Assembly (NCBI GenBank): GCA_000018565.1
Contig: CP000875.1
Coordinates: 1,813,199-1,877,198 of the forward strand
Reading direction: 5' to 3'
Source of the DNA: Herpetosiphon aurantiacus DSM 785
Lineage (GTDB): Bacteria > Chloroflexota > Chloroflexia > Chloroflexales > Herpetosiphonaceae
DNA: 64,000 nucleotides
Positions 4,984-21,369 of the stretch are shown here, piece by piece; position 1 is the first letter of the stretch, and every line of letters begins with the position of its first letter. The notes under the pieces were generated by a model. That model was not told the DNA's origin, searched no databases, and saw only the letters and a program-made list of their open reading frames with translations. Made by a program: the position numbers and the translations under genes.

Positions 4984-5707
4984 TAATGTAGGTTTTGGTG
5001 TGCTAGTCCAAAGGTGTAGCTTAAATAATGCAAGATCAATCGCTGTTATGTCCAATTTCACTTAACGAATGGTCGCTAACCTAGCTATACAACTTGCGTA
5101 GGATTTGGTTTGGTGCATTCGAGCGAATCGCTGCTAGTGGTGTTAGTTGGCTGTATTATATTGTCATCAATTAATACAAGTAAGCTGATTGTTCTGGCCC
5201 TGAAAAATCATTACACTTGAGGCTTAATCAACAATCGGTTTATTGATATGAAATCCAAGTTCATCGTCGAAAGTTGTCATTGGCTTTGTGTTGCTGGGGT
5301 TATTAATTATTGGCTGTTTGATATCTATAATACCGATAATTAAGCTTTACAGTGCGATAATTAGATGATTTTTCTGCCTAGCAATAAGTTGTTGTAATTA
5401 CCTCTTGCAAAAAGGATTGGCTTGTTGTATAGTCTGCCTTAATAGTATGATCGATGGACTGGAAATCTACATACCTCTATATCTACATCCCCTGATTTCC
5501 TAACTGGATTTAATATCTTAAGCCACTGCTAATTTGCTACTATGTATACCATTAATATGCATGGCAAGTGAATACTATTTGGTGTGTGCATAAAAGCAGG
5601 AGCTTGTTGGGCGTTTCATCTACCATGGCCTCATTGATCGTTGCGGCCACGAGAAAACACAAAGCGACTAGACAATATTTCCACATCAACTTGAGAGGAT
5701 TGTTCCA
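4984..5707. other. Long AT-rich intergenic region before the biosynthetic cluster
   Basis: No convincing gene is present in this stretch, which separates the minus-strand unknown gene from comA. It is visibly richer in A and T than its neighbours. It contains a good promoter at 5405-5433 pointing into the cluster, which leaves a leader of roughly 270 bases. No riboswitch or clear terminator-type hairpin was recognised there. Confidence 0.6.
5405..5433 (+). promoter_or_regulatory. Candidate promoter of the sulfonate/NRPS cluster
   Basis: TTGCAA (5405-5410), a 17-base spacer and TATAGT (5428-5433) form a near-consensus housekeeping promoter. It is the best plus-strand candidate before comA at 5708. 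The spacing is read directly; activity is inferred. Confidence 0.5.
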
Positions 5708-6484
5708 ATGCCGACAACATTTCCGCAGATTATTACCACACAGATTGGAGTAACCCATACGGGCAAGAACTATATTCTTGATAAAGGCATGCCGTTATTA
5801 ATGTTTGGGGCCTATATTAAAAGTTTTGCACCCTATATTGGCATGATTAAGTTAGGCTGGACTACCTGGGCGCTTTTCGATCAACACGAGCTTGATGCTA
5901 AAATTGCGCTAGCCAAACACTATCATATTCCCCTTTGTTTAGGCGGAACTCTCTTCGAAATCTGTGCGACTGAGGGCTATTACCAGCAACTGCTCGACTA
6001 TATTGTTGAAAAAGAATTGATCAATATTGAATTAGCTTCAGGCTTTGCGGTTGAATATCACGAGCTGCCTACGCTGATCAAGCAAGCGACTGATCGCGGC
6101 CTTCGGGTGCTTGTGGAGATTGGCTATAAAAATCAGGAAATGGATGATAGTTTGAGTGTCCCTGAGCGTATCGGGCATATTGATTCTGCATTTCGTGCAG
6201 GCGCAGATGCAGTTATTCTCGAAGCACGTGAGGCTGGCGAAGGCTATTCAGTTTTCAAAACAAATCAGGCAAAAAACGCCGATCTGGTAACCCAACTACT
6301 TAAATCCTATGATCTTGACAAACTTATTTTTGAAGCTCCCACCCGTAACAGCCAAATTCAAATGGTTCAGCTCCTTGGGCCAAATGTGCATATGGCGAAT
6401 ATTCCATTCGATGAAATTCCCCGAATTGAGACGATTCGGCGTGGGCTGCATGCAGATACCTTTTTGGCATCCAAGTATCGGTAA
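5708..6484 (+). CDS. comA: Phosphosulfolactate synthase (ComA-like)
   Basis: A 258-residue TIM-barrel enzyme of the ComA family, which adds sulfite to phosphoenolpyruvate to give (R)-2-phospho-3-sulfolactate, the first step of coenzyme M synthesis in methanogens and of sulfolactate formation in Bacillus spores. Family signatures are clear: LDKGMPL near residue 25, IKLGWTTWAL, LGGTLFEICA, INIELASGFAVEY, VLVEIGYKNQ, ADAVILEAREAG, LIFEAPTRNSQ and a C-terminal region ending IRRGLHADTF. GAGAGGA precedes the ATG. It is the first gene of a plus-strand run that includes comB and NRPS genes, so its sulfonate probably feeds a secondary metabolite rather than coenzyme M; no ComC or ComDE homologue was seen. 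Confidence 0.88.
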   Translation: MPTTFPQIITTQIGVTHTGKNYILDKGMPLLMFGAYIKSFAPYIGMIKLGWTTWALFDQHELDAKIALAKHYHIPLCLGGTLFEICATEGYYQQLLDYIVEKELINIELASGFAVEYHELPTLIKQATDRGLRVLVEIGYKNQEMDDSLSVPERIGHIDSAFRAGADAVILEAREAGEGYSVFKTNQAKNADLVTQLLKSYDLDKLIFEAPTRNSQIQMVQLLGPNVHMANIPFDEIPRIETIRRGLHADTFLASKYR

Positions 6485-6545
6485 TTGGTGAGCAGGCTAA
6501 TCGTGCAGTTTTCAAGAGTTCTAGGCTTGACTCCAAGGAGAAACG

Positions 6546-7668
6546 ATGAGCGATTTGGCTCCCACCCTATCTTGCCAAGTGTGCTATACCGCCGCCAATT
6601 GTTTAAGTTGGCGTTGTCAACAGTGTGGAGGCACTTTAGGGATCGATACTATGCCTAGTTTTGACCCTAGCCTGATTGATCAGACCACGTGGTCACTGTG
6701 GCGTTATAAATTTACCAGCCGTCTCAAGCATTATCTCATTAGGCGAAGGTTGTACTCCACTGACCAAGGTCAAGGTTGGTCGGCATAGCTTTCTTGCGAA
6801 ACTTGAATTTCTTAATCCAACTGGTTCGTATAAAGATCGTGGTGTGTCGGTAATGATGAGTCATATCTTGAGTCATCAGGTTCGGCAAGTGATTGACGAC
6901 TCTTCTGGCAATGCTGGTGCTTCTATCTCGGCCTATGCGGCTCATGCCGGTATCCAAGCACGGATTTTTGTGCCGGCCCATGCTAGTAGTTATAAAAAAC
7001 AGCAAATTCAACGGTTTAATGCCACTTTAGTTGAAGTTGAAGGGTTACGGAGCGCGACGACCACCGCCTGTTGGAAGGAAGCTCAGCATACAACCTATGC
7101 CAGCCATGCTTGGAGTCCTTTTTTTCTGGCGGGCCAAATGACCTGTGCTTGGGAGATGTGGGAACAACTTGGGAGGCGAGTACCCGCTGCCATTGTTTGT
7201 GTTGCCGGTCAAGGTGGCCTCTTAATTGGCTTATTGCAGGGATTTAAGGCCTTGCTAAAAGCCAAGCTGATTCCACACCTACCGCGATTATATGCAGTTC
7301 AGGCGCGTGCCTGTGACCCAATTGTGCGAGCTTGGGAGGAAAGAAAGGAGTTTCCCCAGGCTTGTGTTGAACAGACAACCTTGGCCGAAGGAATTCGGAT
7401 TGCCCAACCAGTTCGTGGCCGCGATATTCTCCGCGCGATCTACGAATCAGCAGGTGCGGCTATTCGGGTAGAGGAACACGAAATTCTCGCTGCTCAAGCG
7501 ATGTTGGCCCACCAAGGTTTATTAGTCGAGGCCACCAGTGCTGCTGCGGTCGCTGGATTATCCCAAATTTGCCAATTAACCGAGCTTGCGCCCGACGATA
7601 TTGTTATTCCGTTGACTGGCAGTGGCCTTAAACAAGCCGCTGTAGCCGAATTAAGCATGAGGAGTTAA
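6546..7668 (+). pseudogene. PLP-dependent threonine-synthase-fold enzyme (cysteate synthase-like), frameshifted
   Basis: Two overlapping frames make one protein of about 373 residues. The first 54 codons encode a zinc ribbon (CQVC and CQQC, residues 10-27) ending SLWRY; the second frame continues NLPAVSSIISLGEG and runs to 7668. Joining them requires skipping one base at AAATTT (6708-6713). Threonine synthases and the related archaeal cysteate synthase share this arrangement. The PLP lysine is in NPTGSYKDRG, phosphate-binding residues in SSGNAGAS, and the C-terminal loop in LTGSGLK. With comA and comB beside it, cysteate synthase (phosphoserine plus sulfite) is an attractive role, but threonine synthase-type chemistry is equally possible. 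The shift may be a sequencing error. Confidence 0.75.
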
Positions 7669-7676
7669 GCACAACG

Positions 7677-8483
7677 ATGGTAGCTAAAGATATGGATTGG
7701 ACGGAAAATTATACGACGATCAAGGCTTTGGATGCTCGCCATGATGTTTGGAAACACAATGCAGCGGTTGATGGCCCATTCGGCCCTGATCTGGTTCCAG
7801 CGCTCAAGCCCGATACATTGGTACTCGATGCTGGGTGTGGCACTGGTGTTCACCTCAGAACCTTGATTGATCGCTACCCGCAAGCGCGATTTGTGGCCAT
7901 GGATACCTCTGAAGCCATGGTTGCTGCTACCCGCGAACGCTGCCCTGAAGCCGAGGTCGTGGGTGGAACTATTACGCAGTTGGCGTGGGAGGATCACCAT
8001 TTTGCGGGAACGACATGTTTGCACGTTTTATATCATGTTCCTGATATTCATCAAGCGGTGAGTGAGTTGGCACGGGTAACGCAAAAGGGAGGCTGGGCGG
8101 TTATTAGTACCGTTGCTGACGATGCAGGCCAAGAATCACTGCGTTTGCATAATGCTGCATGTGCTGAAGCTCATGCCTCCGAATGGCAAATTGAAAAGCT
8201 GCCGTCGGCCCGCTTTAACACGGCAAATGGCGAACAATTTATTCGCCCCTACTTTTCTCAGGTGACGCTTTACCCACGCTATGCCGCCTTGTATTTCACC
8301 GAAGTTGCGGCAGTTTTGAAGTATTACACCAGCATGGATTACTATCAGCAGATTTATCGTGCCAATCAAGCGTTGGCTGAGCAGGTGGTGACCAAGGCTC
8401 GGCAATTGGTTGAGGCACAGTTGCATGCGAAGGGTGAGTTTCAGATCTCAAAAAATGTCGGTACTTGGCTTGCCTTCAAATAA
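7677..8483 (+). CDS. SAM-dependent methyltransferase of the cluster
   Basis: A 268-residue class I methyltransferase. Motif I is VLDAGCGTGVHL around residue 50, the acidic residue after strand 2 is in FVAMDTSEAM, and motif IV/post-I is seen in LHVLYHVPDI followed by QKGGWAVIS. The second half is longer and helical, as in small-molecule methyltransferases. GAGGAG stands before the ATG and the gene follows the PLP gene by 8 bases, so it is in the same transcript. It may methylate the sulfonate unit or the finished peptide; the substrate is not readable from sequence. Confidence 0.85.
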   Translation: MVAKDMDWTENYTTIKALDARHDVWKHNAAVDGPFGPDLVPALKPDTLVLDAGCGTGVHLRTLIDRYPQARFVAMDTSEAMVAATRERCPEAEVVGGTITQLAWEDHHFAGTTCLHVLYHVPDIHQAVSELARVTQKGGWAVISTVADDAGQESLRLHNAACAEAHASEWQIEKLPSARFNTANGEQFIRPYFSQVTLYPRYAALYFTEVAAVLKYYTSMDYYQQIYRANQALAEQVVTKARQLVEAQLHAKGEFQISKNVGTWLAFK

Positions 8484-8512
8484 ACAACGAGTTAGAGATA
8501 GGAGTTTTGCAT

Positions 8513-9235
8513 ATGGTCGTTATTGATTTTGATCCAAGCAGTGCTCAACGATATGTTAATCAAGGCTTTAATATTGTAACGGTTGATGTATTACGGGCTT
8601 CGTCAACGATTACTGTTGGCCTAGCCCGTGGGGCCGCCGAGATTATCCCCTGTGTGACTGTTGATGAAGCCTTTGCCCTCAAGCAACGGCATGATGCTAT
8701 TTTGGTTGGTGAAAGAAATGCCGTGATCGTAGCAGGGTTTGATTATACCAATTCGCCCTATGATCTTGAGCAAACTGATTTAACTGGGCGGATTATGGTG
8801 ATTACGACCTCTACCGGGACACGCTTGATTGCTGAATCTATGGGCGCAGCGCATATTCTGATTGGGACGACGATCAATGCCCGCGCAGTTGCCAACAAAA
8901 TGGCCCAACTTGGCAACCAATGGGCGATCATTGGCGCAGGGACACGCGGTGAGTTTCGTCCAGAGGATAAAGTTGGCTGTGCCGTGATTGCTCAATACTT
9001 TCTGCAAGTAACAGGTGAAACGACCGATTCTGCAACCCAAGCATTTATTGATGAGTTTGGTTCCAATAGCTATGAACATATTAGCCAATCACCGAGTACG
9101 ATTAAGCTATTAAGCCTCGGTCGAGCTTGTGATGTGGATTTTGTGCTTAATCACCCTGATGCCTTTGAAATAGTGCCACAGGTTATTTTAAAACAAGCTG
9201 CTGATGCAGCCTATTTGAGTATCGTTCAAGCTTAA
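8513..9235 (+). CDS. comB: 2-phosphosulfolactate phosphatase (ComB)
   Basis: A 240-residue ComB-family phosphatase that removes phosphate from 2-phospho-3-sulfolactate to give sulfolactate, the step after ComA. Family marks are VTVDVLRASSTI near the N-terminus, ILVGERNAV, FDYTNSPYDL, MVITTSTGTRL, and IGAGTRGEFRPEDKVGCAVIA. The start is the ATG at 8513, preceded by AGGAG; a longer frame from 8465 overlaps the methyltransferase. With comA 2 kb upstream, the pair gives a complete route from phosphoenolpyruvate and sulfite to sulfolactate inside a peptide-synthetase locus. Confidence 0.9.
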   Translation: MVVIDFDPSSAQRYVNQGFNIVTVDVLRASSTITVGLARGAAEIIPCVTVDEAFALKQRHDAILVGERNAVIVAGFDYTNSPYDLEQTDLTGRIMVITTSTGTRLIAESMGAAHILIGTTINARAVANKMAQLGNQWAIIGAGTRGEFRPEDKVGCAVIAQYFLQVTGETTDSATQAFIDEFGSNSYEHISQSPSTIKLLSLGRACDVDFVLNHPDAFEIVPQVILKQAADAAYLSIVQA

Positions 9236-9318
9236 CGGCTCGTGATACCAGACGATTTTGTGAATACGCTGGTAGCGCTAGCAATGCGCAACGTTTTGCA
9301 CACGAGGAGATTAAATCA

Positions 9319-9615
9319 ATGGATGCAACCCAGGCAATTATCTTATGCGCTGGACTTCAAAAATCATATGCTTACGAAGATAGCAAATTTATGTTTGATA
9401 TAGCGGGACGACCAGCGTTCTCCTATACCATGGAATCAATTCTTGAGGTTTTTCCTGAATCAGCAGTGACGATTATCACGTCACAACGCTTTCAAGATTT
9501 TAATGCGTTTATTAATCAAGCTTACCCTACGGCAACTGTGGCGTTTGATGATAATCCTGGCTCGGGTACTGCCCTTTCATTAAAAAAAGCTACTCCTTTC
9601 AAGAAGCTCAATTAG
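9319..9615 (+). pseudogene. Truncated NTP-transferase (N-terminal part only)
   Basis: About 90 codons resemble the start of a sugar/CDP-type nucleotidyltransferase: AIILCAGLQKS, a lysine in DSKFMFDIAGRPAFSYT, then DDNPGSGTALSLKKA. A normal enzyme would continue for at least 100 more residues; here the frame leaves the family at an A7 run (9582-9588) and stops at 9615. Directly after the run, in the -1 frame, condensation-domain sequence begins. The gene therefore looks like a remnant fused to the NRPS by a deletion. Eight A residues instead of seven, or -1 slippage, would join the two into one chain. A GAGGAGA ribosome site precedes the ATG. Confidence 0.65.
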
Positions 9616-11345
9616 CCTATTGGGCGAAGCAATTAGCTGGCCCATTACCAGTCCTCCAGCTTCCAATAGCACACGCCCGATCGACGGTACAGCAAACGTT
9701 TCAAGGCAAAACTGCATATTTTTCAATTAATGAGGAGCTAACCAAAGCCCTCAAAGCATTTGCTCATCAGGAGCAAGCTAGCCTTTTTATGATCTTAGCG
9801 ACAACGATTAAGCTGCTGCTATATCGGTATAGTAATCAAACCGATATGCTGATTGGTACGCCCGTAGCGGGGCGTTTAACCACAGCTTTAGAATCGATTG
9901 TAGGATTTTTGGCTAATACCCTTGTATTAAGAACCTCGCTTGCTGGCCAACCTTCTTTTCGTGTACTTCTGCAACGGGTTCGCGAGGTTGCACTTGCGGC
10001 ATATGCGCACCAAGCGCTGCCCTTCGAGCGCTTACTTCAGCAGCTCGGCCCGAATCGTAGCCAAAGCCATTTACCAGTGTTTCAAGTACTGGTTACCATC
10101 CAAAATAGCCCTGAGGCCACGCTCCAACTGGTTGATACCAAGATTGTGCCGATTGAATTTGAGCGTGGAACGGCTAAATTTGATTTAAGCTTTGTGTTTA
10201 CTGAGACCATGAATGGCTTGGCGGGAGGCATTGAATACAACACTGATCTGTTTGATGCTGCAACGATTGAGCGCATGATCGGGCATTTAAACAGCTTATT
10301 GCTTGCTGGTTTAAGTGCGCCAGATCTGTCAATTGCGCGTTTGCCGCTGTTGACCACTGCTGAGTATGCGCGATATATTGCACAATCTCGTGGCATCGCG
10401 AGCAACTTCCCAAGCGAAAGCTGTGTACTGACCTTATTTGAACAGCAGGTGGCGCGAACACCGCATGCGCTAGCTGTTGTTCAGGGTCACGCCAGCCTTA
10501 CCTATCAAGCTTTAGATCATCAAGCGAATCAGCTAGCCTATTATCTTGCGGCCCTCGGCGTGAAACCAGGGACAGGGGTGGGTTTGTGCATTGAGCGAAC
10601 TCTAATGATGGTGGTTGGGATGATGGGTATTCTGAGGCTTGGGGCAATCTATGTGCCGATTGATCCGAGCTATCCACCTGAACGTCAAGCTTATATGGTC
10701 GCGAATGCTGGTTTGGTTGCGCTTGTAACACAAGATCAATTGGCAAGTGCGCTGCAAGCCCAACAGCCTAAGCTCGCAATTGTTGCGCTTGATACCGATT
10801 GGACGGCAATTGCCTGTGCCCCACGCGTCAAACTGCCGCTCATCACGGCTGATATGGTTCTGTACAGTATCTATACATCGGGATCGACTGGAGTTCCGAA
10901 GGGCACAGAAGTAACCCATCGTAACTTTGTGAATCTGCTCAATTGGTATATTACGGAATTTAATTTAGGGTCTGACGATCGGTTTTTGTTAGTGACATCG
11001 TTGAGTTTTGATCTGACCCAAAAAAATGTTTTTGCGCCGTTGATCAGCGGGGGAACTCTCTATTTGTACGATGCGCCCCAGTATGATCCGCATACGATAA
11101 CATCACTGATTGATCAGCATGCAATAACCGTCATTAATTGTACGCCAAGCGCTTTTTATCCGCTGGTTGAAACAACGCCTGATCAGGCGATCGTGCAGCT
11201 AAAATCGCTCAGATGGCTCTTTTTAGGCGGTGAACCGATCAATCTGAGTCGATTCCATGGGTGGATGCAATCGAGCCATTATCAGGCAACCATTATTAAT
11301 ACCTATGGGCCAACTGAGTGTACTGATATTGCAGCGAGTTATTAG
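9588..11345 (+). CDS. NRPS1 fragment: half condensation domain plus adenylation domain, ends at in-frame TAG
   Basis: Starting with SYSFQEAQLAYWAKQL, this frame holds the C-terminal half of a condensation domain (FMILATTIKLLLYRYSNQTD, IVGFLANTLVLRT, PFERLLQQL) and the first three quarters of an adenylation domain (LTYQALDHQANQLA, YTSGSTGVPKGTEVTH, LYDAPQ, INTYGPTECTD). The catalytic HHxxxDG half of the condensation domain is missing. The binding-pocket residues, aligned by hand to GrsA, are D-L-K-N-F-G-T-D-I; the lysine at position 239 would suit an acidic side chain. The frame ends at TAG (11343-11345), after which the same frame continues the adenylation domain without a gap. There is no plausible translation start of its own; ATG at 9789 lies inside the domain. 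Confidence 0.8.
   Translation, partial: SYSFQEAQLAYWAKQLAGPLPVLQLPIAHARSTVQQTFQGKTAYFSINEELTKALKAFAHQEQASLFMILATTIKLLLYRYSNQTDMLIGTPVAGRLTTALESIVGFLANTLVLRTSLAGQPSFRVLLQRVREVALAAYAHQALPFERLLQQLGPNRSQSHLPVFQVLVTIQNSPEATLQLVDTKIVPIEFERGTAKFDLSFVFTETMNGLAGGIEYNTDLFDAATIERMIGHLNSLLLAGLSAPDLSIARLPLLTTAEYARYIAQSRGIASNFPSESCVLTLFEQQVARTPHALAVVQGHASLTYQALDHQANQLAYYLAALGVKPGTGVGLCIERTLMMVVGMMGILRLGAIYVPIDPSYPPERQAYMVANAGLVALVTQDQLASALQAQQPKLAIVALDTDWTAIACAPRVKLPLITADMVLYSIYTSGSTGVPKGTEVTHRNFVNLLNWYITEFNLGSDDRFLLVTSLSFDLTQKNVFAPLISGGTLYLYDAPQYDPHTITSLIDQHAITVINCTPSAFYPLVETTPDQAIVQLKSLRWLFLGGEPINLSRFHGWMQSSHYQATIINTYGPTECTDIAASY
11343..11345 (+). other. In-frame TAG interrupting the NRPS1 adenylation domain
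   Basis: The codon TAG separates TDIAASY from IDALAQLAEKPIPIG, which are adjacent in intact adenylation domains. A single substitution (from CAG or AAG, for example) would explain it. Nothing else around it is disturbed. Confidence 0.85.
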
Positions 11346-13076
11346 ATTGATGCGCTTGCACAACTGGCTGAAAAGCCAATACCAATTGGCATGCCGATTT
11401 ACAATAGCCAACTCTTAATTCTGAACGATGGTCTACAGCCAGTTCCCGATGGATGTATTGGCCAAATTTGGATTAGTGGGGCTGGAGTTGGCAATGGCTA
11501 TACTGGCCAGCCAGGGTTGACGGCTGAGCGTTTTCGGCCTAACCCCTTTGATTATATCCCTGGCTCGCGGATGTATTGCAGCGGTGATCTGGGTCGGCGT
11601 AACCAGAATGGGGCAATCGAATTTCTCGGGCGTACTGATCATCAGGTAAAAATTCGCGGCTTTCGGGTTGAATTAACCGAAATTGCACAGCGCTTACAGC
11701 AGCATCCGGCGGTTCGCGAGGCGCTTGTTATGCGGCACGAGCATCCGCTGCGGGGCGAATATCTTGTTGCATATGTTGTGCTGATCCAGCCGGCTCAAGC
11801 CGATGTTGGTGCGTTGCGGCGCTATCTTGCAAAGCATAGTCCACCCTATCTCGTTCCAGCTGAAATTGTGCTACTGGAGGCATTTCCGCTTAGCCCAAAT
11901 GGCAAGATCGATCGGCAGGCGTTGCCGCATCCCACGGCGAATGTTCATGCTGGTGAGGCTCGCCAACCCGCTGCTCGCTCATTTGACCCACTTGAGTTTC
12001 AAATACGCACAATCTGGGAAGAGACGCTTGGCATTGAACCGATTGGGGCACAAGCGAATTTTTTTGAGCTTGGTGGGCATTCGTTGCTTGCGATTGCATT
12101 GATGGCACGGATCGAAGAACGGCTTGGTAAACGCTTGCCAATTACCATCCTCTTTGATGCCCCCACGATCGAGCAAATGGTCGGCTTGCTTCGGCAGGAG
12201 GGCTATGCGCCGCGATGGTCGCCGATGGTTTTGATGCAAGCAGGGCGTAAGGGGTTTCCTGCACTATTTTGTGTCCATGCACTTAGTGGCAGCGCCTTTG
12301 CCTACACAGTATTGCCCAAACATATCTCACCCGACCAACCATTTTATGGGATTGAATCGCGCGGTCGCGATATTAACCAAGCCCCTGATCGCTCGATTGA
12401 GGCCATGGCGGCCTATTATATTGAGCATATGCGGCTGATTCAACCTAGTGGACCATATTGTATTGCTGGATGGTCATTAGGTGGGCCAGTTGCCTTTGAA
12501 ATGGCTCAGCAATTATATCGTGCTGGTGAAACAGTGGCGTTGCTGGCGATTGTTGATACGGGAGCGCCCTTGGCTGGGCGATTACCAATTGAACCAGCTG
12601 CCATTGATGATCTTTCTTTATTGGTGCCACGCTTACGCCATTTTGGAATTAATCTCGATTTGGACTTCATTCAAGCACTTCCGGCAGATCAGCAGCTTCC
12701 TTATATTATGCAACAAGCAGTGAGTGGTGGTTTTTGGTCGGCAAACATTACGCTTGCCGAAATTAAGCGTAAAGGTGAGCTGATTCGCACAAATTTAGCC
12801 GCACGACGCAACTATAGCGCCCAGCCCTACCCTGGGACAATCAACCTCTTCCGCACCAAACAACATCCAGGTTATAGCGACGACGAAGTTACGCTTGGTT
12901 GGGATCAATTGGCTTTAACGGGAGTTAAGGTGTGGGAAATCCCTGGTGATCACCTCTCAATTTTTCATAGTCCTTATGTTGAGGTGTTGGGGCACGCATT
13001 ATGGGAGTGTCTTCAGGGTTGTACGGATCAGCTAGACGAACTCGATTACGCGCATGAACGATATCGAGCGCAATGA
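11346..13076 (+). CDS. NRPS1 continuation: rest of adenylation domain, carrier protein, thioesterase
   Basis: This frame is continuous with the preceding fragment except for the TAG. It supplies adenylation motifs A6-A10 (GYTGQPGLTAERF, MYCSGDLGRR, DHQVKIRGFRVEL, PNGKIDRQALP), a carrier domain with the phosphopantetheine serine in FFELGGHSLLA, and a type I thioesterase with nucleophile in IAGWSLGGPVA near 12469 and the histidine in IPGDHLSIF. A thioesterase at the end makes this the terminating module. The first ATG (11391) has no ribosome site, so translation probably depends on reading through or on the TAG being an artefact. Its TGA overlaps the in-frame ATG at 13073. Confidence 0.82.
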   Translation: MDALAQLAEKPIPIGMPIYNSQLLILNDGLQPVPDGCIGQIWISGAGVGNGYTGQPGLTAERFRPNPFDYIPGSRMYCSGDLGRRNQNGAIEFLGRTDHQVKIRGFRVELTEIAQRLQQHPAVREALVMRHEHPLRGEYLVAYVVLIQPAQADVGALRRYLAKHSPPYLVPAEIVLLEAFPLSPNGKIDRQALPHPTANVHAGEARQPAARSFDPLEFQIRTIWEETLGIEPIGAQANFFELGGHSLLAIALMARIEERLGKRLPITILFDAPTIEQMVGLLRQEGYAPRWSPMVLMQAGRKGFPALFCVHALSGSAFAYTVLPKHISPDQPFYGIESRGRDINQAPDRSIEAMAAYYIEHMRLIQPSGPYCIAGWSLGGPVAFEMAQQLYRAGETVALLAIVDTGAPLAGRLPIEPAAIDDLSLLVPRLRHFGINLDLDFIQALPADQQLPYIMQQAVSGGFWSANITLAEIKRKGELIRTNLAARRNYSAQPYPGTINLFRTKQHPGYSDDEVTLGWDQLALTGVKVWEIPGDHLSIFHSPYVEVLGHALWECLQGCTDQLDELDYAHERYRAQ

Positions 13077-13105
13077 ATGCAAATGAATGCATGGGAGGTT
13101 GTGAG

Positions 13106-16100
13106 ATGCGTATTCAAGGAGCGACCCAGAGCAATCCAACCGATACAAGCCCGGATGACGATCAACCCTGGTGCATCCATGAGCTGGTTGCCCAACAATC
13201 ACGCTATTGGGCTGATGCTGTGGCGGTTATCCACGCTGACACGCAATTAACCTATGCCCAATTAGACCAGCGGGCTAACCAAGTTGCCCACGCCCTGCTT
13301 GAGCAGGGGATTAAGCCCGATCACCTCGTTGCTCTCTGCCTTGAGCGCTCAATCGACATGCTGATTATCGTGTTTGGCATTCTAAAAGCCGGTGCAGCCT
13401 ATTTACCGATAGACCCTCACTACCCGTATGAGCGTCAACGCTTTATGATCGAACACTCACAAGCACCGCTCGTAATCACCACAGCTCCATTGGAAGGAGC
13501 GCTTGCTTCAAGGCCTGTGGAAATCCAGCTTGAATTATTAATGGCAATTGCTGCTCAAAAACCAACGAGTGCCCCTAATCAACGAGTTGATCCTGATCAA
13601 TTGGCGTATGTTATCTATACCTCAGGCTCAAGCGGTCAGCCTAAAGGAGTGATGATCACGCATCGAGCGTTGGTCAATCATATGCAATGGATGCAAACAA
13701 CCTTTGGCTTTAATCGCCATGATCGGTTCTTGCAAAAGACTCCATTGAGTTTCGATGCGTCGGTTTGGGAATGTTATGCCCCATTATTGTGTGGCGGTCA
13801 GTTGATTCTAGCCAAGCCTGATGGTCATCACGATGCCCACTATCTGGTGGAAATGATTCAGCGCTATCAGATTTCGGTGCTTCAGGTGGTTCCTTCGTTG
13901 TTGCGCATGCTCCAAACTGAACCACAGCTGGCCAATTGTCGGAGCTTACGCTACTTGTTTATTGGTGGTGAACCACTGCATAGTGAGCTTGTGGCCCAAG
14001 TACGTCGCGTTTTGCCAGCTAGGATGATTAATTTGTATGGGCCAACCGAAGCCACCATTGATGCAACATGGGCTGAATGCAACCAAACGACCGAATATCC
14101 AACCATCCCAATTGGCTACCCGATTGATAATCTTACGACATGGGTGCTCGATGCCCAGATGCAGCCAGTTGCAGTTGGTAGATCTGGCGAACTCTATATT
14201 GGTGGAATGGGCTTAGCCCGAGGCTATCAACGGCAACCAGATCGCTCGGCTGAGCGCTTTGTGCCCGATCCATTTAGTACACAACCTGGGACGCGGCTTT
14301 ATAAAACTGGCGATCGCGTTCGCTTGCTTGCCAATGGTGCGCTGCTTTTTCTCGATCGGATTGATCAGCAAATTAAGCTCCGTGGGTATCGGATTGAGTT
14401 GGGCGAGATTCAGGCCGGTCTCGAACGCCACCCTCAGATTCGCCAATCGGTTGTTGTAGGCCAGCTCGATCAGACTAAGACGCTTCAATTGGTGGCCTAT
14501 GTGGTACCAATGCCCGAGGCTAGAATTCCAATTGAGCAATTAAGAGCGCTTTTGAAAGCCCAACTGCCGCGTTATATGCTGCCAAGCGCATTTGTGATCT
14601 TGGAACGGTTGCCACTGCTTGCCAATGGCAAACTTGATCGGGCTAGCTTGCCGCTTCCAGCACCATCAGCCTACCAATCGTCAGTCATTGTGCCGCCACG
14701 CACGCCCCAGGAAATGCACTTGTTGCAACAATGGCAGGAGCTTCTTGGTTTCGATCAGATTAGTATTGATGATGATTTTTTCGATTTAGGCGGGCACTCG
14801 TTGTTGGCAACGCAGCTTGTGGCCCGAATGCGTGATCAGTTCCAGCGCGATTGGTCGGTCGCAACAATTTTCAACTATCCAACAATCGAGCAGTTGGCGG
14901 CGCAACTGCGGTCAACCCCTGATCATCAGCACGTCGCAACGATTCCCGTGGCTGATCGTCAGCAACGGATTCCCTTGAGCACGATGCAGGAACGCGTTTG
15001 GTTTCTTACCCAACTTAATCCTGAAAGCCGTGCCTATCATTTTCAGATGACAATTCATTTTACTGGGCAATTGCATGTGCCAATCCTTGAGCAAGCGTGT
15101 AGTGAGATTGTACGGCGGCATGAAATTCTGCGAACGACCTTTCCGACTGAAGCTGGTCAGCCATATCAGCAGATTCATGCGCCGTGGGCTGTAACAATTC
15201 CTAGCATCGATTTGCGACAGTATCCGTTGGAGCAAGCAAGTCATTTGGCTGAGCAAGCAATTGCTGTTGCAATGTGTGAGGCCTTTGATCTTACCCAACT
15301 GCCCTTGGTGCGCTGGAGTGTTTTTCGGTTAGCCGACGATCAATGGATGTTATTGCAGATTGAGCATCATTTTATCCACGATGGTTGGTCGATTGCGCGA
15401 CTGTTGGCTGAAATAAAGACACTCTATACTGATTATCTTGCTGGATTAGCCCCATCGTTGCCTGCGTTGCCAATTCAATATGCTGATTTTGCAGTTTGGC
15501 AGCGTCAGCAATTAAACGCTGGCTTGCTCGAACGTGATTTGCGCTATTGGGAGGCGCAATTGGCGCATCGTCCAGTTGTGCTTGAACTTCCGACCGATTA
15601 TCAACGACCACCTGTGCAAAGTATGCGTGGTTCAGCTGAGCGGATTGCAATTCCGGCTGAGTTGGCAAATGCTGCCCGTGAATTAAGCCGTCGGGTCGGG
15701 ACAACCTTATTTATGACCTTGCTCACAACATTTAGCACGTTGCTCTACCGTTATACCGAGCAAACCGATATTCTGCTTGGATCAGGAATTGCCAATCGGC
15801 GGCAACGTGAGCTTGAGCCATTGTTGGGGATGTTTGTTAATACGGTCGTACTCCGCACTGATCTCCAGGGGAATCCTAGCTTCCGAGAACTTTTGCTTCG
15901 CACGCGTTCGTTAATGCTGGAGCAGTATGAACACCTTGATGTTTTGATTGAAAAGGTGGTTGAACGGTTACGTTTACCGCGCGATTTGAGCCGCAATCCA
16001 CTGTTTCAAGTGATGTTTAGCTTTCACGATTCGCCAGTACCAACGCTTGATCTGCCAATGCTTCATGGCGAGATTCTCGAACGCAATAACGGTTCGGCGA

Positions 16101-18250
16101 AGGCCGACCTGAACGTGATTGTGATTCCATATGCTGAACAACATGGGGCGGCGGGCCATAGTGCTGAGCAAAAAGCGATTACGATGATCTGGGAATATAG
16201 CACTGATCTGTTTACCCAAGCGACGATTCAAACCATGATTGGGCATTTTCAAGCACTGTTGCGGTCTGTTACCCAGAATCCTGATCAGCGGATTAATCAG
16301 CTAGCCATGCTCAGTCGTGCTGAAACTGCCCAATGCCTTGAGCAGGCCCGTGGTCCGCTTGTTCCAACTCCAACAACGACCCTGCATGGTTTGTTTGCCA
16401 ATTATGTTCGCGAGCAACCAAATGCCCTTGCAATTGTCACAGACCATGAATCTATCAGCTATAGCCGCTTGAATCAGCGGGCTGACATGCTAGCGGGTGC
16501 GCTTCGCCAAGCTGGGGTTGGGCCAGGGATGGAGGTGGGGATTGTGAGTGAGCCCTCAATTGCAACAATTGCTGGAATTCTGGCAGTGCTGAAATTGGGC
16601 GCAGCCTATGTTCCACTTGATCCGAGCCATCCTCAACAACGCCTCAACTTGATCATCAACGAAGCTCAACTCCAAGCAATCTTGGTTGAATCGCAGCTTG
16701 AACAGTTGCTGCCGAACACATCGGCGGCAATTATTCGGCTTGATAGCGACCATGGAGCAGTAACAGATTACCCGATTGTAGCTGCTCAGGCGTGTGCCTA
16801 TGGCTTATTTACCTCGGGTTCTACTGGGCAACCAAAAGGAGTAGCCTGTAGTCATGAGGCAGTGATCAATCTTTTGGATGCCATGCAGCAGATGCGTCCA
16901 CTTCCGCAGGGATGTCGCCATAGTTTATGGACAAGCCTCAGCTTTGATGTTTCAGTCTATGAGATATTTAGTGCGCTTACCCAAGGCGGCACGCTATACT
17001 TAATCGATCAGACTATGCGGCTTGATGCCGACCAGTTTTTTGCTTGGTTGGCCAAATATGCCATTGAAAGTGCCTATATTCCACCATTTATGCTCCATGA
17101 TTTAGCGCTTTGGCTGATGGCGAATCGGAATCGACTCCAGCTCAAACGACTTTTAGTTGGGGTTGAACCAATTCCTGAGCAGAATTTAGCGATAATTGGG
17201 CAGCTGATCCCTGGATTAACGATCATTAATGGGTATGGTCCAACGGAAACAACAATCTGTGCGACGTTCTATAGCGTGCCACCGTTCAACGATTCAGCTC
17301 GGGTAACGCCAATCGGTCGGGCAATTCAGCAGATGGCAGTCTATGTGCTTGATCGGGAGTTGCAGCCGATGCCAACCGGAGTTATTGGCGATATCTATAT
17401 TGCTGGAATTGGGTTGGCGCTAGGCTATATTGCCAAGCCAGATCTGACGGCTGAGGTATTTTTGCCTAACCCATTAAGTGCTGAGCCAGGGATGCGTATG
17501 TATCGGAGTGGTGATCGTGGACGGTACTTGGCTGATGGTTCATTAATGTTTGTCGGTCGGAGTGATCGCCAAGTCAAAATTCGAGGAATGCGGATTGAGC
17601 TTAATGAGATTCGTACATGCGTGCTGCAGCATGCTCAGGTGCATGAGGCGGTCGTTAATATTTATAATGATCAGCCTGATAATCCTCAAATCGTTGCGTA
17701 TGTTGTTCCAACCAAGGGTCAGTTGCTGACTGAGGCTTCGCTACGAACATATATTGGTCAGAAATTGCCGCTCGCGATGCAGCCACAAGCGTTTGTGCTG
17801 CTTGATCGATTGCCGCTTACGGCCAATGATAAACTTGATTGGGCTGCTTTGCCTGCGCCATTTCCTGCAACCCGATTAAGCCCCATGGAAGCTCCATCGA
17901 CCCCGCTTGAGCAGATCCTTGCTGGTATTTGGAGTGAGCTATTTGCCCAACCAGCAATCAGCATTGATGCTAACTTTTTTGAGTTAGGCGGCCATTCATT
18001 ATTGGCAACCCGAGTTGCCTCGCGGCTCCAAGAAACATTGCATAAAACAATTCCAGTCAGCCTCTTTTTTCAATATCCCACGATCAAGCAACTGGCCCAT
18101 GTTCTCGATGGCTACACTGCTTATGAATCAGACCATCATCGCGCCATGCTGCCGGAAAGCGATAGATCACTGCTGAGTCGCGTTCATGAGCTTTCTGAGC
18201 AGGAGGTTGATCAATTACTGGCTCAATTCCTTGATGAATCTGTTGAATAA
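13106..18250 (+). CDS. NRPS2: A-PCP-C-A-PCP peptide synthetase
   Basis: A 1714-residue nonribosomal peptide synthetase with an intact frame. Order of domains: adenylation A1 (YTSGSSGQPKG near 13616), carrier (DLGGHSLLATQL near 14786), condensation (HHFIHDGWS near 15365, the catalytic His motif present), adenylation A2 (TSGSTGQPKG near 16812), carrier (ELGGHSLLATRV near 17983), and a short helical tail. By hand alignment to GrsA, A1 pocket residues are D-A-W-Q-F-G-L-I-D, a signature widely linked to glutamine or glutamate; A2 reads D-V-Y-Y-L-G-G-I-C, not assigned. A2 has N-D-K instead of N-G-K at motif A10. It begins with adenylation, so it should initiate the peptide. The start at 13106 is preceded by GGGAGG; ATG at 13073 is in frame. 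Confidence 0.9.
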   Translation: MRIQGATQSNPTDTSPDDDQPWCIHELVAQQSRYWADAVAVIHADTQLTYAQLDQRANQVAHALLEQGIKPDHLVALCLERSIDMLIIVFGILKAGAAYLPIDPHYPYERQRFMIEHSQAPLVITTAPLEGALASRPVEIQLELLMAIAAQKPTSAPNQRVDPDQLAYVIYTSGSSGQPKGVMITHRALVNHMQWMQTTFGFNRHDRFLQKTPLSFDASVWECYAPLLCGGQLILAKPDGHHDAHYLVEMIQRYQISVLQVVPSLLRMLQTEPQLANCRSLRYLFIGGEPLHSELVAQVRRVLPARMINLYGPTEATIDATWAECNQTTEYPTIPIGYPIDNLTTWVLDAQMQPVAVGRSGELYIGGMGLARGYQRQPDRSAERFVPDPFSTQPGTRLYKTGDRVRLLANGALLFLDRIDQQIKLRGYRIELGEIQAGLERHPQIRQSVVVGQLDQTKTLQLVAYVVPMPEARIPIEQLRALLKAQLPRYMLPSAFVILERLPLLANGKLDRASLPLPAPSAYQSSVIVPPRTPQEMHLLQQWQELLGFDQISIDDDFFDLGGHSLLATQLVARMRDQFQRDWSVATIFNYPTIEQLAAQLRSTPDHQHVATIPVADRQQRIPLSTMQERVWFLTQLNPESRAYHFQMTIHFTGQLHVPILEQACSEIVRRHEILRTTFPTEAGQPYQQIHAPWAVTIPSIDLRQYPLEQASHLAEQAIAVAMCEAFDLTQLPLVRWSVFRLADDQWMLLQIEHHFIHDGWSIARLLAEIKTLYTDYLAGLAPSLPALPIQYADFAVWQRQQLNAGLLERDLRYWEAQLAHRPVVLELPTDYQRPPVQSMRGSAERIAIPAELANAARELSRRVGTTLFMTLLTTFSTLLYRYTEQTDILLGSGIANRRQRELEPLLGMFVNTVVLRTDLQGNPSFRELLLRTRSLMLEQYEHLDVLIEKVVERLRLPRDLSRNPLFQVMFSFHDSPVPTLDLPMLHGEILERNNGSAKADLNVIVIPYAEQHGAAGHSAEQKAITMIWEYSTDLFTQATIQTMIGHFQALLRSVTQNPDQRINQLAMLSRAETAQCLEQARGPLVPTPTTTLHGLFANYVREQPNALAIVTDHESISYSRLNQRADMLAGALRQAGVGPGMEVGIVSEPSIATIAGILAVLKLGAAYVPLDPSHPQQRLNLIINEAQLQAILVESQLEQLLPNTSAAIIRLDSDHGAVTDYPIVAAQACAYGLFTSGSTGQPKGVACSHEAVINLLDAMQQMRPLPQGCRHSLWTSLSFDVSVYEIFSALTQGGTLYLIDQTMRLDADQFFAWLAKYAIESAYIPPFMLHDLALWLMANRNRLQLKRLLVGVEPIPEQNLAIIGQLIPGLTIINGYGPTETTICATFYSVPPFNDSARVTPIGRAIQQMAVYVLDRELQPMPTGVIGDIYIAGIGLALGYIAKPDLTAEVFLPNPLSAEPGMRMYRSGDRGRYLADGSLMFVGRSDRQVKIRGMRIELNEIRTCVLQHAQVHEAVVNIYNDQPDNPQIVAYVVPTKGQLLTEASLRTYIGQKLPLAMQPQAFVLLDRLPLTANDKLDWAALPAPFPATRLSPMEAPSTPLEQILAGIWSELFAQPAISIDANFFELGGHSLLATRVASRLQETLHKTIPVSLFFQYPTIKQLAHVLDGYTAYESDHHRAMLPESDRSLLSRVHELSEQEVDQLLAQFLDESVE

Positions 18251-18356
18251 GTTCGTTGCTGGTAGGATTTTTTGCTCTCGATATTGTGATTGAATTTGCA
18301 GCATCAATTGCCTTGACAAAAGCGAATATGCCGATGTTTAGGGGATTGGTTGTTGT

Positions 18357-19775
18357 ATGGAGGCGCGTTGCATTTTGGAACACCCTAAAAAAGGCATTCG
18401 TACATTTCTGATTGTTTGGTTTACCCAATCAATCTCTGTGATGGGGAGTTCGCTAACCTTTTTTACGATTATTATTTGGCTGACCAAGCATCAATATCCC
18501 GATGAATCGCAAAAACAACTGTTAGCTTTTGCCTTATCAACCTTGGGCTTGGCGCGTGCCCTAACGACAATCGTGCTAGCTCCGATTGCTGGAGCTTGGG
18601 TTGATCGCCATGATCGGAAGCAGACCATGATTATTGCGAATATAATCAATAGTTTGTTAGCATTTGGCCTGATGGCGCTTATGCTGGTTAATTCACTCGA
18701 ATTATGGTCATTGATGCTGCTTCAAGTTGGGCTTGCCGCATCAGGGTCGTTTCATGCTGCGGCCTTTGATACCGCCTATTCGACCCTGGTTCCGAAGCGT
18801 TTTCTGCCGCGGGCTAATGGCATGATGCAAACAATGTGGTCGCTTTCGACCATTTTAGCCCCGACCGTGGCTGCTGCCTTGATTGCCCTACCGGATATGC
18901 TCCGGAAAAGTGGTGGATCAGCTGGTTGGACTAGCGTTATTACTAACTTAGCAGATGGCACAGCCTTGACGATTGGGGTTGATGCACTGAGTTTTTTAAT
19001 TGTTGCAATCATTCTCAGTTTTCTAACCATTCCATCACCGCAACGAGCTGATTTAAATACCACACAAGGCAAAAAGAAAAGTCTCTGGCTCGATATTAAG
19101 GAAGGGTTTGCCTATATTTGGCAGCGACCAGCGTTCTTATGGTTATTAAGTGCCTTTACGATTGCCAATTTTGTCGTTTCAACCCGCAGTATTTTTCAGC
19201 CGCTGATTCTCAAATTTAATTTGGTTGCCGATTGGACGCTGCATGGTTTTTCGTATGATACCGCATTGGCGTTGCTGAGTACATCGGCAAGTGTTGGTGG
19301 AATTATTGGGGGCATTTTTATTAGTTCTTGGGGTGGCTTGAAAACGAAACGGGTTTATGGGGTGTTGTTGCCAATGGTGGTTTTTAGTCTCGGACAGATT
19401 TTGTTTGGATTGGCTTCCTCGATTTACCTAACTGCGATTGCGGCCCTGATCTCCTCAGGCGCGATTCCTATTCTCAATGCCCATTCGCAGTCGATTTGGC
19501 AAGCCCAAACCCCATCGGAAATTCAGGGTCGCGTGTTTGCAGTCCGACGGTTGATTGCCCAATGTACGTTGCCACTTGGCACGATGTTAGCCGGAATTTT
19601 AGGTGGCTTGTTTAATCCAGGCATGATGATGGCACTCTTAGGGGTTGGAATGGGCGTGTATTGTTTCTTCCAATTTATGAACCCTACGCTGTTGCAGATC
19701 GAGCATGATCCAAATAATCCACCCGAGCCTGATCCAAATAATCCGCAACATGGGATACCGCAAACAGCCAAGTAA
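18357..19775 (+). CDS. MFS-type exporter of the cluster
   Basis: A 472-residue major facilitator with about 12 hydrophobic segments, starting FLIVWFTQSISVMGSSL. The loop between segments 2 and 3 has the family motif in GAWVDRHDRKQTMI. It resembles the MFS group of siderophore and macrolide exporters (EntS-like). The C-terminus is hydrophilic with the repeat DPNNPPEPDPNNPQ. It follows NRPS2 by about 100 bases on the same strand, so it is the likely exporter of the peptide product; substrate is inferred from position only. Confidence 0.85.
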   Translation: MEARCILEHPKKGIRTFLIVWFTQSISVMGSSLTFFTIIIWLTKHQYPDESQKQLLAFALSTLGLARALTTIVLAPIAGAWVDRHDRKQTMIIANIINSLLAFGLMALMLVNSLELWSLMLLQVGLAASGSFHAAAFDTAYSTLVPKRFLPRANGMMQTMWSLSTILAPTVAAALIALPDMLRKSGGSAGWTSVITNLADGTALTIGVDALSFLIVAIILSFLTIPSPQRADLNTTQGKKKSLWLDIKEGFAYIWQRPAFLWLLSAFTIANFVVSTRSIFQPLILKFNLVADWTLHGFSYDTALALLSTSASVGGIIGGIFISSWGGLKTKRVYGVLLPMVVFSLGQILFGLASSIYLTAIAALISSGAIPILNAHSQSIWQAQTPSEIQGRVFAVRRLIAQCTLPLGTMLAGILGGLFNPGMMMALLGVGMGVYCFFQFMNPTLLQIEHDPNNPPEPDPNNPQHGIPQTAK

Positions 19776-19816
19776 GGCGATGTGGCTAAAACAGTCAGGA
19801 GCAAGGGCATAAATGT

Positions 19817-20668
19817 ATGAGTGAAGAACTTATTTTTACCCATAGTGAAGATGGGGTTGGCTTGGCCGGAGTGATCTTTCAACTGCGCTCACGATCACAC
19901 GAGGGTCTGGTTTGTATTTGGATTCACGGAAACTTTGGGCGTTTTTATAATATTGCTAGTGTTACGATTGGGCGTAATCTCGGCCTTGCTAATTATCCCA
20001 TGATTAGTGCCAATACCCGTGGTCATGATATTACCAATTTAATCTGGAAAGCCGGCAAAGCTGTTGCTGGTGGTAGTTCGCGTGAATTGCTAACCGAATC
20101 GCCATATGATATCGGCGGCTGGATTAATTTTGCCAGCGCAAACGGTTTTCAGCGTGTGGTTTTGATTGGACATAGTTTGGGTGCGGCCAAGCTGATCTAC
20201 TATCAAGCCCAACGCCATGATCCACGGGTTGTTGGGCTTGTATTGGCCTCGCCAGGCGTGCGTTCTCAGGTTTCAAGCGAACAGCTTGAGCTAGCCCAAG
20301 CAATGGTCGATCGTGGTCAGGGCGACGATTTACTTCCTCCAGCACATGGTGCTGCGATCTGGAATCGTTTAAGTGCGGCAAGTCTATTAAACAGACATGC
20401 GACATTGCCATTGATCTACAGCGATGCGCATGAACAGTCGTATCTTAGCCAACTTGCTTGCCCAATTTTGGCTTTTTATGGTGCACGCGAAGCCCAAGCT
20501 GGCACTGGCTCAGACACTGAATTAGCCTTGCTTAAACAATGGTGTCGTGCAAGCCCGCGCGTCGATACACAGATTATTGCGCATGCTGATCATGGGTATG
20601 CTGGCTGCGAACCAGCGATTGCTCAGGTTATCGCTCAGTGGATCAGCTCGATCCAAGGTGAACGATAA
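19817..20668 (+). CDS. Alpha/beta-hydrolase of the cluster
   Basis: A 283-residue serine hydrolase. Visible elements are an oxyanion-type start CIWIHGNFGRFYN, the nucleophile elbow IGHSLGAAKLIYYQ near residue 118, an acid region in LAFYGAREAQ, and the histidine in IAHADHGYAG near the C-terminus. It lacks a signal peptide. It may release, cleave or tailor the peptide, or act as a type II editing thioesterase. It follows the exporter by about 40 bases and is the last gene of the plus-strand cluster before an independent promoter at 20788. Confidence 0.78.
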   Translation: MSEELIFTHSEDGVGLAGVIFQLRSRSHEGLVCIWIHGNFGRFYNIASVTIGRNLGLANYPMISANTRGHDITNLIWKAGKAVAGGSSRELLTESPYDIGGWINFASANGFQRVVLIGHSLGAAKLIYYQAQRHDPRVVGLVLASPGVRSQVSSEQLELAQAMVDRGQGDDLLPPAHGAAIWNRLSAASLLNRHATLPLIYSDAHEQSYLSQLACPILAFYGAREAQAGTGSDTELALLKQWCRASPRVDTQIIAHADHGYAGCEPAIAQVIAQWISSIQGER

Positions 20669-20787
20669 GCAGTTTCCGGGGGCTTTCGGATTATGAGGAT
20701 TTGGCTATATCGAGCATTAACCAACCTGCTGCGTGATCAATCTGAATAGCAAGCTAAATCAATAGCTAGCCAATTTGCTGCTAGCTC

Positions 20788-21278: not shown

Positions 21279-21369
21279 GTTGGCGAAGAACGTGAACTTT
21301 TTAGCCACGAATTGCCCGAATGACACGAACCCCCTGATCCCGCATTCGGCTAATCGGGCTGATAGTGTA

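Follow-up and report, generated by a model that had tools for sequence, protein, structure and literature searches.

A probable deletion scar in a decaying nonribosomal peptide synthetase cluster of Herpetosiphon aurantiacus

Herpetosiphon aurantiacus is a predatory soil bacterium. In its genome, the first part of a nucleotidyltransferase gene runs, at a run of seven adenines, into the second half of a condensation (C) domain of a nonribosomal peptide synthetase (NRPS). The best explanation for this arrangement, to which we give a probability of about 0.88, is that it is the scar of a deletion in an NRPS cluster undergoing decay. One deletion event, removing about 1 kb or more, would have joined the nucleotidyltransferase and NRPS1 genes at 9588-9602, out of frame. 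Positions are those of the window, that is, the whole stretch of 64,000 nucleotides analysed here. The genes of the cluster follow each other in the order ComA-like protein, PLP enzyme, methyltransferase, ComB-like protein, nucleotidyltransferase (cut), NRPS1 (cut C-A-T-TE), NRPS2 (A-T-C-A-T), MFS transporter, and hydrolase. The features are as follows.

About 4986-20737, no strand assigned: species-specific island of about 15.7 kb with the entire cluster inside it; five other Herpetosiphon genomes lack it.
5708-6484, + strand: open frame, ComA-like phosphosulfolactate synthase homologue (Pfam PF02679, E=1.6e-53; NCBIfam, 186 of 280 bits).
6546-7668, + strand: PLP enzyme, threonine-synthase-like, frame broken at about 6708-6720 (aligned to an intact homologue).
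7677-8483, + strand: open frame, methyltransferase (Pfam Methyltransf_11, E=2e-19).
8516-9235, + strand: open frame, ComB-like 2-phosphosulfolactate phosphatase homologue (Pfam PF04029, E=2.1e-48; below the NCBIfam cut-off).
9319-9588, + strand: nucleotidyltransferase fragment, N-terminal 90 residues or so, GlmU/MobA-like (NCBIfam profile match, alignment with relatives).
9582-9588, + strand: A7 run, with the deletion joint in it or just after it (joint 9588-9602; sequence and C-domain alignment).
9588-10375, + strand: C-terminal half of a condensation domain, HHxxxDG half missing (Pfam Condensation, positions 192-453 of 456, E=1.1e-53).
10437-13073, + strand: remainder of NRPS1, with A domain, PCP, and thioesterase, interrupted in frame by a TAG (profile matches).
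11343-11345, + strand: TAG nonsense codon within the adenylation domain of NRPS1 (Pfam AMP-binding, positions 1-327 of 384 before it and 340-383 of 384 after it, in the same frame).
13073-18250, + strand: NRPS2, A-PCP-C-A-PCP, its 1725-aa frame open and HHFIHDG present (Pfam and C-domain alignment).
18357-19775, + strand: MFS transporter.
19817-20668, + strand: alpha/beta-hydrolase-like protein, last gene of the island (weak NCBIfam matches only).

On the left side of the joint, the open reading frame 9319-9615 (+ strand) reads MDATQAIILCAGLQKSY...GSGTALSLKKATPFKKLN* and stops in its own frame at TAG 9613-9615. The first-pass annotation had recognised in it the N-terminal 90 residues of an NTP-transferase, and this assignment stands on a weak match: residues 3-87 of the product align with positions 6-90 of the NCBIfam profile PRK14352 (E=1.7e-5), and the likeness to GlmU-type enzymes spans residues 3-91. 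A Pfam search of the product gave no match. When LCAGLQKSYAYEDSK is compared with the signature LxAGxGxRxxxxxxK, the AG and the K are kept and the arginine of the relatives is absent; the motif AIILCAG...SK..FDIAGRP aligns with these relatives, again minus their arginine. The predicted structure of the fragment has a pLDDT of 43, too low to be of use. A PDB profile search started from the fragment aligned with four relatives returned a strong match to GlmU, which is not independent evidence since it leans on these relatives.

On the right side, the −1 frame is open from 9588 to 11345 and encodes the half C domain, followed by the first part of the adenylation domain. As the first-pass annotation had proposed, the catalytic half of the C domain is missing. 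When the fragment is set against three complete C domains, its alignment starts at E(9603)AQLAYW. The HHxxxDG motif, which lies upstream of this point in all three, belongs to the region that the fragment lacks. Because homology to C domains resumes only at 9603, after the A7 run, the joint can be placed within about 9588-9602. No ATG, GTG, or TTG start codon for the C fragment occurs in its own frame before 9789. A census of C domains was made over the whole genome (6,785,430 bp in three contigs, contig 1 being 6,346,587 bp). Of the 52 domains found, 51 have a profile match that begins at position 13 or before it, and the match of the domain at 9588 begins at position 192. No orphan first half of a C domain was found anywhere in the genome, so that the missing half is gone rather than moved. 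The census excludes chance as the source of the half domain and also disposes of two other candidates, a naturally split C domain (0 of the 51 other domains is split) and a first half displaced elsewhere in the genome.

Both partners are thus seen directly to be truncated, within about 15 bp of each other, and out of register. From the truncation of both we infer that one deletion event would account for the joint. Nucleotidyltransferase domains are about 230 residues long. Compared with GlmU-type domains about 140 nucleotidyltransferase residues would be gone, together with about 190 residues of the C domain, hence the lower bound of about 1 kb; as an intact orthologous cluster was not found, this size is a lower bound only, and perhaps whole further modules were lost as well. 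The earlier suggestion of a deletion that took the end of one gene and the start of the next is borne out by the two cut ends, by the absence of the missing half from the genome, and by the presence of two other lesions. The functional consequence foreseen there also appears sound as judged from the protein sequence: HHxxxDG, the mark of a functional C domain, is lacking, and condensation by NRPS1 would be disabled. Without this catalytic half, NRPS1 would be unable to take over the dipeptide that NRPS2 (A-T-C-A-T) is expected to supply.

The two other lesions are equally apparent on direct reading. The first is the TAG at 11343, beyond which the rest of the A domain, the PCP, and the thioesterase follow in an unchanged frame. 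The second lies in the PLP gene, where the zinc-ribbon N-terminus, MSDLAPTLSCQVC...WSLWRY, is in one frame and the PALP catalytic domain, LPAVSSIISLGEGCTPL..., is in another. An intact homologue of 380 aa from the order-mate G016 (L067:1229-2371) aligns to both frames in turn. Each of these lesions would independently disable the pathway. Three lesions are therefore found between about 6708 and 11345, in under 5 kb, two of them within 3 kb of the joint. The frames are truncated or interrupted relative to their homologues and the pathway carries more than one independent lesion, both of them marks of a decayed biosynthetic cluster. The decay looks recent, because most other frames of the cluster are still open. 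The order of the lesions, like the loss of the product, is something that we infer.

The window also shows where the cluster sits. The DNA on either side of the island (to about 4985 on the left, from about 20735 on the right) is conserved, with about 75-97% identity, in the genomes of five other Herpetosiphon. In these sister genomes the flanks are only 0.7-3.0 kb apart and, as direct comparison makes plain, the cluster is absent; no remnants of it were found in the five gaps. A 33-residue methyltransferase match (E=0.003) in the gap of one sister genome, G004, was not taken as a trace of the cluster. In all five, the same gene of 212 aa stands between the flanks; it is absent from the window and was not detected in the H. 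aurantiacus genome. The H. aurantiacus lineage probably acquired the cluster at the place where the sisters keep this small gene, and function would have been lost afterwards. Gain of the cluster with replacement of the 212-aa gene is the simplest reading. A cluster ancestral in Herpetosiphon and lost from the five sisters appears unlikely: synteny by itself leaves room for repeated loss, but a single acquisition makes a simpler history than a series of clean losses, and the sisters share the 212-aa gene without remnants whereas H. aurantiacus has no detectable copy of it. When the two edges of the island were compared, they shared neither a direct nor an inverted repeat of at least 11 bases. 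Just to the right of the island, at about 21284-21330, a sequence of 30-45 bp has dozens of matches in the sister genomes and looks like a small repeat dispersed in this genus.

A comparison with intact orthologous clusters had been proposed in the first-pass annotation. It revealed the empty site in the sister species, but the intact cluster itself was not found. None was detected with the cluster DNA in 40 relatives or in a search of plasmids, and searches of GTDB genome contigs with the nucleotidyltransferase fragment and with ComA each gave none. In 400 Chloroflexota genomes, the ComA-like protein had matches only about 30% identical; in 300 genomes, the nucleotidyltransferase fragment had only weak matches to general nucleotidyltransferases. 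Among 158 genomes of the class, the PLP enzyme was matched in G016 at 59% and in G265 at 43% identity.

Instead of a simple deletion, a translocation or an exchange by recombination with another NRPS module could have made the joint, the half C domain then coming from another module or another place. In favour of this, NRPS genes recombine often. However, neither an orphan first half nor a displaced copy is present in the genome, and gene order and strand around the joint fit a biosynthetic operon; such an origin is thus rather improbable. An assembly or cloning artefact, where the missing DNA would be present in the strain and lost or collapsed in the published assembly, deserves still less credit. 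According to the parts of the genome report that describe the sequencing (PMC3368417), the draft consisted of 160 contigs, and PCR and editing served to close the gaps; about 1 kb could drop out in unstable clones. Against this, the same parts describe, for strain 114-95T, Sanger libraries of 3 kb, 8 kb, and fosmid size, 11x coverage, and finishing to an error rate below 1e-5 (less than 1 in 100,000); moreover, the joint region is single-copy, a second copy being absent from the genome, and the two further lesions lie close by. With 11x Sanger coverage and this finished quality, three sequencing errors here are unlikely, and ordinary pseudogenisation is the more natural account.

The idea that a programmed −1 frameshift, or slippage in the transcript, at A-AAA-AAA yields a functional nucleotidyltransferase-NRPS fusion retains hardly any probability. 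What stood of this earlier proposal is the register, A_AAA_AAA (9582-9588) being placed as in a canonical X_XXY_YYZ slip site; the meaningful chimera found no support, since the fusion would consist of 90 residues of one enzyme and a half C domain without an active site, ending at TAG 11343 within the A domain. RNA folding after the A7 run does not stand out clearly from that of shuffled sequences (z of −1.7; 10 of 200 shuffles as good), other A7/T7 runs inside cluster genes (7119, 11020, and 12059) are without frame change, and no relatives were found in which a slippage arrangement is conserved. Frameshifting at the A7 run could not rescue a working enzyme, because the frame break in the PLP gene and the TAG at 11343-11345 would remain. 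Nor is slippage needed to explain the arrangement, since two out of three random deletions would leave the joined frames out of register. A functional frameshift fusion was accordingly rejected, with no complete nucleotidyltransferase, no C active site, and a stop at 11343.

A deletion scar in a decaying cluster being the preferred reading, it remains to relate the cluster to known systems. The genome paper lists, in its Table 6, an 'NRPS 1' locus, Haur_01684-Haur_01687, with three modules, a tripeptide product, and a size of 10.0 kb (Kiss et al., 2011, PMC3368417). The broken cluster is probably this locus, as judged from order, position, and size rather than from locus tags. The stretch from 9.6 to 19.8 kb in the window agrees with it in module count and in size (about 10 kb) and, by position, no other NRPS locus precedes the later clusters on the chromosome. 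The published entry differs in that, in the portion of the paper considered here, it is a tripeptide locus with no mention of lesions. With degraded NRPS clusters, the present one shares an internal deletion, a nonsense codon, and a frame break in one operon while other frames stay open. There is no difference in kind, the unusual trait being the set of ComA/ComB-like and NRPS genes. A related and apparently intact gene neighbourhood is found in the order-mate G016 (contig G016:C12, loci L066/L067), where an MFS transporter and the intact threonine-synthase-like enzyme (59% identical) adjoin NRPSs of C-A-T and C-A-T-TE organisation. In contrast, ComA, ComB, the methyltransferase, and the nucleotidyltransferase were not found in G016:C12. 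It is not an ortholog of the whole cluster, since the NRPS modules are only about 37% identical.

In an intact pathway, as deduced from domain order, a dipeptide would be assembled on NRPS2, then extended by a third residue and released by NRPS1. This scheme matches the published entry with its three modules and tripeptide. As both the C half and the A domain of NRPS1 are broken, a tripeptide is not expected, and the one once credited to the cluster is probably no longer made. The homologues of ComA and ComB hint at a building block that carries a sulfonate. They share Pfam families and invariant residues with the coenzyme M enzymes ComA and ComB (the invariant columns of the ComA alignment are present in the 5708-6484 product), but the cluster ComA is about 30% identical to its relatives, both proteins are below the NCBIfam equivalog cut-offs, and they lie in an NRPS operon. 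Because of these sub-cut-off scores, the sulfonate building block is a lead only. It may be imagined, though with considerable doubt, that the product before decay was a peptide containing such a block: from PEP and sulfite, the ComA/ComB-like enzymes would produce sulfolactate, which the nucleotidyltransferase, the threonine-synthase-like enzyme, and the methyltransferase would then modify for use by an NRPS of three modules. No published NRPS pathway with a ComA/ComB-like sulfonate block was found in the literature searched.

These observations correct the published reading of the 'tripeptide' locus, which should be regarded as decayed. Since the cluster very likely cannot work, hunting for the tripeptide in extracts of this strain of antibiotic interest would be wasted effort. 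The locus is a clear example of a cluster that a single species of the genus possesses and that is already in decay there. Its unusual combination of ComA/ComB and NRPS genes may exist intact elsewhere.
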